In this document: positions 16,531 through 18,821 of the stretch, in pieces
Position numbering within the stretch: position 1 is the first letter of the stretch
Layout of the letters: each line of letters opens with the position of its first letter
Virus record (IMG/VR): IMGVR_UViG_3300046001_001937
Coordinates: 1-27,320 of that record
DNA from: a virus
DNA: 27,320 nucleotides
Direction: 5' to 3' (one strand)
Made by a program: the position numbers and the translations under genes
The notes under the pieces: generated by a model
Database searches by the model: none
What the model was told of the DNA's origin: nothing
The model's input: the letters and a program-made list of their open reading frames with translations, nothing else

Positions 16531-16884
16531 CTATTTCTTATCATCCTCAAATATCAGCACATCAATCTGACCGCCCTTGATTACATCACGCCGAATCAGG
16601 TGCAACTCGTCAATCTGGCAGTCATCCAGCCATACGCCAGCATGAGTCAGAGCATCCTGCAGAGCTTTGAGCCTGTTATCCAAATCCTGCCTAATTCGAT
16701 TAGCCGGATAGATAGACGCATACATAATAATTCTTCCCTCTAGCATCTTGTGACCAGCCTGAGCCACTATCTCTGCTACTTGCTTGCGGTACTCTAATCC
16801 AGCCTTCTTAATGTACTTTCTAACCCCATGCTGACCGTAGTAGTGGTTAATAGTAGGAGCCAGTGGCAAGCGTAAAGTAATCAT
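16531..16884 (-). CDS. rusA: RusA-family Holliday junction resolvase
   Basis: A 117-residue protein beginning MITLRLPLAPTINHYYGQHG. It contains the diagnostic RQDLDNRLKALQDALTHAGV and WLDDCQIDELHLIRR blocks, which include the aspartates that bind metal in RusA. The enzyme resolves four-way junctions during late replication and recombination. ATG 16884 overlaps the upstream stop (ATGA). The gene ends the replication block, directly upstream of the promoter region of the accessory operon. Confidence 0.9.
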   Translation of the reverse strand: MITLRLPLAPTINHYYGQHGVRKYIKKAGLEYRKQVAEIVAQAGHKMLEGRIIMYASIYPANRIRQDLDNRLKALQDALTHAGVWLDDCQIDELHLIRRDVIKGGQIDVLIFEDDKK

Positions 16885-17084
16885 TTCCAGTCCCCATCTA
16901 GGCCGCGGTTTCCCTTTTCCCACTGTATACGAGCATCAATTCTTAGTTTATTAGCCAAAATCTCCCCCCTTCGTTTTTCCACAGCAAGTAGGTATTCCAT
17001 AGCTTTGTTCCTATCTTGTACCCGCCATTTAAGAACCTGGCGTACTTCGCATTGATGACGTTGTTCTTCAAAAAACTCATGCAC
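16881..17084 (-). CDS. DUF7696-like small protein
   Basis: A 67-residue helical protein, MHEFFEEQRHQCEVRQVLKW at the start, with RNKAMEYLLAVEKRRGEILA and RIDARIQWEKG following. The pattern C-E-x-R...YL-x-x-VE-x-x-RG is one I recall for DUF7696, of unknown role. The start is GTG 17084, with GGAG eight bases upstream. The GTG comes directly after the stop of the frame overlapping the methyltransferase and lies eight bases inside the methyltransferase. Confidence 0.65.
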   Translation of the reverse strand: MHEFFEEQRHQCEVRQVLKWRVQDRNKAMEYLLAVEKRRGEILANKLRIDARIQWEKGNRGLDGDWK

Positions 17085-17865
17085 TCAAAATTCTCCATGC
17101 TGTTGCTGCACATAATGGAACCTGTCCGTTTCCAATTGCTTTAAGTCTGTCCACCCTAGAGGCCACCCCATCAGCCACTCTACCCACATTGGGTTCAGAC
17201 TCCCACCAGCTTGCATTGCCAATGTTTCCGAATTTCGATTTAATTCCGATGGAGAATTCCCATTGTCTTTCCACATCCTTGCTACCGGAGTTGCTAGTTT
17301 CTTTTTTAATGCTTTCCTGCTGTTGCTTCCACCGTCTAATCCTGTTGTATTGGGCGTGTGAAAACTGTCCAATCCGTTCGGCGAAAATCCAGATTCTGTC
17401 CCTCTGATGGTTTGCTCCAACGTCTGCTGCTCCCAGCACTCCCCATTTCGCATTAAACCCCATCGTGGCCAAGTCTCCGAGAACTCGTCCAAGCCCCCTA
17501 GAAGTGAGCATTGGTGAGTTTTCCACGAAAGCGAATCTTGGCTGTACTTCGTGAATGATCCTTGCCATTTCTCCCCACATTCCTGATCGCTCTCCGTCAA
17601 TTCCTGCTCCTTTTCCTGCTGCACTAATGTCTTGGCATGGAAACCCTCCAGATACAACATCAACAATTCCTCGCCATGGCTTTCCGTCAAAGGTTTGAAC
17701 ATCATCCCAAATCGGGAAAGTTTCAAGAACTTTGTCATTTTGTCGGGCGCACAATACGCTTGCTGGATATGGTTCCCATTCAACTGCACAGACTGTTCTC
17801 CATCCAAGAAGTTTTCCCCCAAGTATTCCTCCACCAGCACCTGCGAAAAGAGCCAACTCATTCAC
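17077..17865 (-). CDS. dcm: DNA (cytosine-5) methyltransferase
   Basis: A 262-residue enzyme with the C5 motif order. Motif I is FAGAGGG (7-13), motif IV the catalytic PCQ loop (GGFPCQDIS, 73-81), motif VI ENS (115-117; usual ENV), motif VIII QRDRIW (154-159), and motif X near IGNGQVP (244-250). The target-recognition stretch (about 160-220) is short. It probably methylates phage DNA against host restriction; no cognate endonuclease is nearby. The start is GTG 17865, overlapping the helicase stop, with AGGGGG five bases upstream. Another 258-codon frame covers almost the same span. Confidence 0.88.
   Translation of the reverse strand: MNELALFAGAGGGILGGKLLGWRTVCAVEWEPYPASVLCARQNDKVLETFPIWDDVQTFDGKPWRGIVDVVSGGFPCQDISAAGKGAGIDGERSGMWGEMARIIHEVQPRFAFVENSPMLTSRGLGRVLGDLATMGFNAKWGVLGAADVGANHQRDRIWIFAERIGQFSHAQYNRIRRWKQQQESIKKETSNSGSKDVERQWEFSIGIKSKFGNIGNASWWESEPNVGRVADGVASRVDRLKAIGNGQVPLCAATAWRILSA
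17085..17861 (-). CDS. Overlapping reading frame inside the cytosine methyltransferase gene
   Basis: This frame is in the +1 register relative to the methyltransferase and stays open for 258 codons. It starts with ATG 17861, immediately after the helicase stop and four bases after the methyltransferase GTG, sharing the same AGGGGG ribosome-binding site. It stops immediately before the GTG of the next gene. Its second half has segments that I recognise as a phage protein type: GEKWQGSFTKY with SLSWKTHQCSLLGG, TWPRWGLMRNGECWE, TTGLDGGSNSRKA and LNPMWVEWLMGWPLGWTDL. An internal ATG 17660 with GAGG eight bases upstream could yield a 191-residue form. Either it is a genuine overprinted gene or its conservation merely reflects the methyltransferase frame. 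I cannot decide without comparison. Confidence 0.4.
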   Translation of the reverse strand: MSWLFSQVLVEEYLGENFLDGEQSVQLNGNHIQQAYCAPDKMTKFLKLSRFGMMFKPLTESHGEELLMLYLEGFHAKTLVQQEKEQELTESDQECGEKWQGSFTKYSQDSLSWKTHQCSLLGGLDEFSETWPRWGLMRNGECWEQQTLEQTIRGTESGFSPNGLDSFHTPNTTGLDGGSNSRKALKKKLATPVARMWKDNGNSPSELNRNSETLAMQAGGSLNPMWVEWLMGWPLGWTDLKQLETDRFHYVQQQHGEF

Positions 17866-18821
17866 ACGTTCCCCCTAAAATGTCCATTGTTATCAAAGTC
17901 ACTCGGAAAGCCCTGCCATTTCTCAATAAACTGGCTGCTATCTCGGTGGAACCAGAAGTTAAACCACTCTGTAGCCTCACCGTTACGTTGTTTCTCATTC
18001 ATTAGAATCATATCCGGTGAAGACATATCGGTGTCTATTCCTTTCTGTATCTCGTTTTCTTTTTTCTTGTTGCGCCAGACAATAAATACGTTATCAACCT
18101 GATCTGTAATTGAACTGGAACCGCGCAAGTCGTTCTTATTAGGCATTAACTCATCAGATTGCAGCTTGCGGATATGGTGAACCAAATGCACATGGATATT
18201 GTGATCTCTAGCCAATGCAGTGATTTCATCAACAAACCGTTTTTGACCGTTGTAGTCATCCTCACCTGATACGCACTTCATTAGTGAATCAATGAAAACA
18301 TGGGTAACACCTAGTTCTACAGCGCAATATCTAGCTACTGAAATAACCTGGTCTGCCGTTACCGTACCCTGTTGGTCGTAAAACCACAGGTTTCCCATAG
18401 CAAATGCTTTGAAACGATTATAAAGTTTTCTCTTGTAGTCTAGCCCCTGTATCTCAGCATGGTGGTCTATATCCTCACCTGCAAATTGCCGTACAAGTCG
18501 CTTAATACTTACTTTCGGCTTCATCTCGAATGATGCTACACAGACTTTTTCTCCCTGTTTAATCAGACCTAAAGCCACTTGACCAGTCAGCAAAGACTTA
18601 CCGCCACCGTTGGAACCAGCCCAAACTGTAACCTCACCAGGACGGAAAGCAAAAGACTTCGTGCTTTCCCACTCCATTTTCGTAGACTTCTCAATAACCG
18701 GATTATCAAGGTTGTCTGCAAGCTCATCAACCCAGACAGATACATCCTTAACGTTTTGCTTGTGGTCTGTAGCCCGTAAGTACGAACTAAAATCAATATC
18801 TTCATTCAGGAACATAGTCAT
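17862..18821 (-). CDS. DnaB-like replicative helicase / RecA-fold ATPase
   Basis: A 319-residue protein with Walker A GSNGGGKS (69-76), Walker B HVFIDS (174-179), a histidine-containing switch HLVHH (212-216) and a DNA-binding-loop region DLRGSSSITDQVDN (231-244). It lacks the primase and zinc domains of T7 gp4, so it looks like the helicase part alone, with host or other phage primase expected. ATG 18821 has GGGGAG seven bases upstream; a second ATG two codons in is possible. It overlaps the upstream gene by 20 bases and the methyltransferase by four. Confidence 0.88.
   Translation of the reverse strand: MTMFLNEDIDFSSYLRATDHKQNVKDVSVWVDELADNLDNPVIEKSTKMEWESTKSFAFRPGEVTVWAGSNGGGKSLLTGQVALGLIKQGEKVCVASFEMKPKVSIKRLVRQFAGEDIDHHAEIQGLDYKRKLYNRFKAFAMGNLWFYDQQGTVTADQVISVARYCAVELGVTHVFIDSLMKCVSGEDDYNGQKRFVDEITALARDHNIHVHLVHHIRKLQSDELMPNKNDLRGSSSITDQVDNVFIVWRNKKKENEIQKGIDTDMSSPDMILMNEKQRNGEATEWFNFWFHRDSSQFIEKWQGFPSDFDNNGHFRGNV

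Follow-up and report, generated by a model that had tools for sequence, protein, structure and literature searches.

The locus described here raises the question of whether one stretch of viral DNA encodes two proteins in two frames of the same strand, and what the second protein would be. The window (the whole stretch of DNA analysed, 27,320 nucleotides, positions 1 to 27,320 of the IMG/VR virus record IMGVR_UViG_3300046001_001937) had previously been read from its letters alone. This sequence-only reading noted two same-strand frames running without stops over about 780 bases, one of them a DNA cytosine methyltransferase, and offered two alternatives: that the overlapping gene is real, or that methyltransferase genes are systematically mis-called. 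The ORF list and a read of the window bore out both frames, which lie on the minus strand and overlap by approximately 775–780 bases. They are referred to as alpha and beta, and the features of the locus are as follows.

17077–17865, minus strand: alpha, predicted catalytic subunit of a C5-cytosine methyltransferase (GTG start, 262 aa; PF00145)
17085–17861, minus strand: beta, putative second gene overprinted in the +1 frame (ATG start, TGA stop, 258 aa)
17292–17861, minus strand: beta residues about 1–190, the N-terminal part over alpha motifs I–VIII, containing SLSWKTHQCSLLGGLDEFSETWPRWGLMRNGECWE
17142–17204, minus strand: candidate motif IX of beta, GSLNPMWVEWLMGWPLGWTDL, from an ungapped profile scan; the confident part of the structural model
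17098–17148, minus strand: motif X region of alpha, RLKAIGNGQVPLCAATA, motif X being the best match to the alpha C-terminus in the profile scan
17871–17876, minus strand: AGGGGG, Shine-Dalgarno-like, read directly from the sequence
17862–18821, minus strand: upstream putative helicase-like gene, named by the earlier reader (ORF list, junction)
16881–17084, minus strand: downstream gene (ORF list, junction)

The two frames are almost congruent. Beta lies wholly within alpha, with 258 versus 262 codons; the start codons are 4 bases apart (ORF list and junction read) and the stop codons only a few codons apart. The junctions agreed with the earlier description, in which the beta ATG directly follows the TGA of the helicase-like gene with zero spacer (TGA-ATG) and the beta TGA directly precedes the GTG of the downstream gene (TGA-GTG). 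The last bases of the helicase-like gene overlap the alpha start, and alpha overlaps both its upstream and downstream neighbours by a few bases each. A single AGGGGG is common to both frames, as had been noticed, and is located 5 bases upstream of the alpha GTG and 9 bases upstream of the beta ATG (junction AGGGGGAACGTGTGAATGAG). The motif X region of alpha comes immediately after, and partly on top of, the motif-IX codons of beta. The earlier statement that EPNVGRVADGVASRVDRLKA and LNPMWVEWLMG are encoded by the same bases is correct.

Frequent stop codons in the second frame of homologous genes had been named as an observation that would speak against a second gene; such stops were found to be rare. 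The relatives used for this analysis were fetched with the alpha protein alone, so that beta could not bias their choice, and 73 non-redundant sequences were retained after the removal of near-duplicates. Expected values were derived from synonymous codon shuffling within each gene, which preserves the alpha protein and codon usage. Beta was open from end to end in 71 of the 73 relatives, against 0.09 expected, and beta-frame stops averaged 0.03 per gene, compared with an expectation of 5.3. The third frame of the same relatives contained a mean of 18 stops per gene. For the gene in the window, beta stayed open in 0.4% of synonymous shuffles. A second set, fetched by alpha alignment, gave a similar picture (beta open in 54 of 57), and a few relatives had a stop inside beta (loci L026 and L467) or near its end. 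The openness across relatives and the result of synonymous shuffling indicate that the second frame is not the product of chance. Sets fetched with beta were excluded from these statistics. Six bacterial loci (L187, L204, L209, L215, L220 and L221) have one in-frame stop in alpha and an intact beta; these were given no weight as evidence for beta because they had been fetched with it, and the alpha stops may reflect decay, assembly error or read-through.

The relative phase of the frames allows selection on each to be distinguished. Each third base of an alpha codon is the second base of a beta codon, and each first base of alpha is the third base of beta; thus, a third-base change that is silent in alpha alters beta. 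Over the alpha gene, four-fold degenerate third bases agreed in 73% of cases, compared with 28% expected from composition. Agreement at four-fold sites was 68%–75% for the alpha/beta pair versus 37%–40% for other genes on the same contigs at 55%–75% protein identity, which is the suppression of synonymous change that the sequence-only reading had proposed to look for. Differences were also counted by codon position in 124 viral and 63 bacterial sequences, the bacterial half being from a beta-fetched set. Across alpha residues 1–165 (motifs I–VIII), the alpha third base was the most variable, as expected if alpha dominates there, and in this catalytic part alpha was better conserved than beta. 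In the variable region (alpha 166–220), beta was conserved slightly better than alpha. Over alpha 221–245, the motif-IX segment, the alpha third base was quiet (0.15) and the beta third base was the most variable (0.25); identity in this segment was 0.81 for beta versus 0.72 for alpha, and 0.69 versus 0.59 in the bacterial set. Dominance returned to alpha in the last 13 codons (motif X). This switch of the dominant frame along the gene was also found in bacterial prophages, and it is not what selection acting on RNA structure or only on alpha would produce.

The start codons pointed in the same direction. Nearly all relatives retain the beta ATG, and the alpha start drifts among ATG, GTG and TTG or to positions 3–9 codons further upstream. 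In one clade, beta starts 27 bases earlier, with ATG TCA TGG TTA (or similar) versus ATG AGT TGG CTC elsewhere; the beta protein there begins with MSWL, or nearly so, from other codons, and alpha starts differently. These comparisons of relatives show protein-level selection on both frames; by such evolutionary tests, the second frame is under purifying selection beyond that on the first and is a real gene. Patterns of change explained fully by selection on the methyltransferase frame had been the other finding expected to speak against this, and the four-fold sites and codon-position counts show that such selection is insufficient.

Alpha is recognisable as a C5-cytosine methyltransferase, although an incomplete one. 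It contains all five motifs attributed to it earlier, namely I (LFAGAGGG), IV (GGFPCQDIS, with PCQ), VI (FVENSP, of the ENV/ENS type), VIII (RDRIWIF) and X (GNGQVP), together with the large-domain fold. The match to PF00145 (E = 2.6e-31) covers model positions 4–189 of 324 only. The AlphaFold model of alpha is mostly confident for residues 1–164, has pLDDT < 50 for residues 196–247 and ends in a confident C-terminal helix; in a Foldseek search, approximately 168 columns of the large domain aligned to M.HhaI and M.HaeIII (7.6e-12 for M.HaeIII). Neither motif IX nor a small domain was found in this chain: the Pfam match ends at model position 189, residues 196–247 are unstructured and the C-terminus matches motif X only. 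Alpha as modelled is without a structured small domain. The stretch of alpha predicted to be disordered (196–247) corresponds to the DNA that encodes the tail and motif IX of beta.

Beta belongs to a phage protein type that the earlier reader had remembered from databases and that does exist. It matched PHROG 1008 (9.6e-22, labelled ‘DNA methyltransferase’) and PHROG 26627 (2.7e-14, function listed as unknown), although neither label says that the family is a second frame on a methyltransferase gene. Beta had no match in Pfam or NCBIfam, and its profile had no significant match among solved structures. When the beta profile was compared without gaps with the profile of 33 conventional C5 methyltransferases (86,750 window pairs), the top pair was GSLNPMWVEWLMGWPLGWTDL with motif IX RRLTPRECARLQGFP (z = 5.9). 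A BLOSUM profile of motif IX built from eight sequences gave p = 0.2 for the beta of the window alone, and HH-suite gave no significant alignment between beta and conventional enzymes; the comparison with actinophages is therefore the stronger support for the identity of beta. The beta profile matched SchoolBus gp5 (3.5e-22), Sabertooth gp78 (4.5e-8), Aggie gp53 (8e-8) and Euratis gp34 (0.0015). The AlphaFold model of beta was poor (mean pLDDT of 56), with the motif-IX segment, including helix 224–231, as its only confident part. The motifs are thus divided between the frames, with I–VIII and X in alpha and IX in beta, and we infer that beta is probably the motif-IX/TRD subunit of the same enzyme.

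These results suggest that the locus is very probably a two-subunit C5-cytosine methyltransferase whose subunits are encoded by the same DNA in two frames. Alpha would provide AdoMet binding and catalysis (motifs I–VIII) as well as motif X, and beta would provide motif IX and a TRD-like, TP-rich tail, preceded by an N-terminal part whose codons overlie those of the catalytic region. Both chains would start from the shared ribosome-binding site, beta being translated as a separate chain; the starts 4 bases apart behind this one site and the nearby stops suggest that the two are made together. The chains could then assemble, with beta completing the small DNA-reading domain missing from alpha. 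Alpha alone is predicted to be inactive, and methylation would depend on beta.

Beta might instead be a real protein that is not a subunit, such as a regulator or inhibitor of the methyltransferase or a counter to host restriction. The N-terminal two thirds of beta, which have no recognisable fold or family, could be accommodated by such a separate function. However, this is improbable given that alpha lacks the motif IX which beta carries, that profile matches link beta to a single-chain enzyme and to the C-terminal subunits of split enzymes in actinophages, and that each beta found overlies an alpha. A programmed frameshift could also join the frames into one conventional enzyme rather than two chains. 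In the actinophages, where alpha (I–VIII) is followed by a +1 beta (IX–X), a single shift would rebuild the conventional order; in the window, a ribosome-binding site precedes a separate ATG for beta, and because motif X remains in alpha, two shifts would be needed to join I–VIII, IX and X. We therefore regard a frameshift product as very unlikely here.

Only the slightest probability attaches to the mis-call, in which the second frame is untranslated and selection acting on alpha, or on the nucleotide sequence itself, creates the semblance of a protein family. Conserved alpha motifs alone would yield some resemblance in the +1 frame, and alpha is the better conserved of the two in the catalytic part. 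Yet synonymous-site suppression goes far beyond that in neighbouring genes, and neither the beta codon signature with its higher identity over the motif-IX segment nor the re-encoded MSWL start can stem from alpha. The mis-call was rejected on these grounds (openness, MSWL re-encoding, four-fold sites and codon-position counts), and the choice posed by the earlier reader falls in favour of a real overlapping gene.

The two-frame arrangement is widespread. Beta from residue 1 onward was found in many phages, in prophage-like loci of Acinetobacter, Pseudomonas, Nitrosomonas, Rhizobiales and others, and on a Leptospira plasmid, and beta patterns matched at least about 600 viral stretches. On two plasmids, one archaeal (Methanomethylovorans) and one from Bacteroides, beta is open only from about residue 70, with stops before this point. 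These stops imply that only some members of the family have the N-terminal extension and that the openness of beta is not forced by the alpha sequence. Among the loci examined, no beta was found without alpha; it was always on alpha and in the same register, and a stand-alone beta was rejected for this reason.

Several loci showed further variation in annotation or structure. In Paenibacillus phage Bloom (L170, 825–1880 and 1027–1731), both frames are annotated as ‘DNA cytosine methyltransferase’, and in Pseudomonas phage phPA-G (L162, 1501–2229) only beta is called; databases thus already contain beta under methyltransferase or hypothetical names. In Mycobacterium phage Ochi17 (L169, 1133–1892), a frameshift splits the alpha gene into gp73 and gp74, both called methyltransferase. 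In Akkermansia and relatives (L246 near 1200, L250 near 2950 and L249 near 985), the alpha start NELALFAGAGGG is in another frame than the rest of the gene. L246 and L250 have a run of 7 to 10 G at motif I, and slippage of this tract could turn the two subunits on or off in concert, as happens with phase-variable genes. A different short methyltransferase in Nitrosovibrio (L357, alpha frame from 1264 onward) has its own long second frame (beta profile, 3.6e-10), which suggests another family in which such pairs are overprinted. Streptococcus phage P0092 (L475, 1460–1879) has a second annotated ‘DNA methyltransferase’ in the other frame (MMQQESQ...SWGMMSNGKCLTARILE); its methyltransferase is conventional, with motif IX in its own frame.

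It is likely that, in a large class of phage and prophage C5 methyltransferases that are short and annotated as single proteins, the enzyme is obligately two-chain, with a recognition subunit overprinted in the +1 frame. Selective control would pass between the frames domain by domain, and in the clade of the window beta would have extended in the upstream direction across the catalytic region, which made the two genes co-extensive. If so, hundreds of ‘DNA methyltransferases’ of phages and prophages in databases represent half an enzyme, and assays of the annotated protein alone would wrongly score such methyltransferases as dead. The locus would also be an unusually long and widespread same-strand overprint for double-stranded DNA phages. 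Where a gene caller disallows long overlaps, one member of the pair is missed. The surviving series of single chain, staggered pair, nested pair and co-extensive pair could make the origin of overlapping genes testable.

The proposed enzyme can be compared with single-chain and split enzymes. The large domains of M.HhaI and M.HaeIII align to alpha, but these enzymes are single chains with their own small domain. Mycobacterium phage Aggie gp53 is likewise a single chain (550 aa) with all motifs in one frame, and its C-terminal half matches the beta profile. Split pairs occur in two Mycobacterium phages, SchoolBus (gp6/gp5) and Sabertooth (gp79/gp78), and in the Streptomyces phage Euratis (gp33/gp34). 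In each of them alpha stops after motif VIII, and the TP-rich tail, motif IX and motif X are on another gene that overlaps it in +1. These split pairs resemble the pair in the window in the beta profile, the TP-rich tail, motif IX and a partial +1 overlap; they differ in that the annotated overlap covers part of alpha only and motif X is in beta.

In M.EcoHK31I, beta (176 aa) is reportedly encoded inside the alpha gene in another frame, a finding attributed to Lee et al. in 1995. The small-chain gene of the window likewise lies within the large-chain gene in another frame. M.EcoHK31I is a two-polypeptide C5 methyltransferase of E. coli (YGGCCR) with motifs I–VIII and X in the larger subunit and IX in the smaller (PMC3404938), the same partition as in alpha and beta; with this partition on record, the principle is already known and not new. 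Compared by description, the pair in the window differs in being almost co-extensive (258 of 262 codons) and phage- and prophage-borne. The predicted TRD of M.EcoHK31I is in the large subunit (PMC3404938), whereas the variable region here seems common to both chains, with beta slightly better conserved. M.AquI (CYCGRG) is naturally split after motif VIII, with the small-domain motifs in its second chain (PMC3404938). Its beta also carries motif X, in contrast to the window, where motif X stays in alpha; SchoolBus gp6/gp5 fits the M.AquI partition better, since gp5 holds both IX and X. No paper on this alpha/beta overlap was found in the literature, which is incompletely searchable. As far as that literature shows, the new elements are the near co-extensive overlap, its spread over phages, prophages and plasmids, the change of dominant frame from one part of the gene to the next and the series of arrangements that survives.
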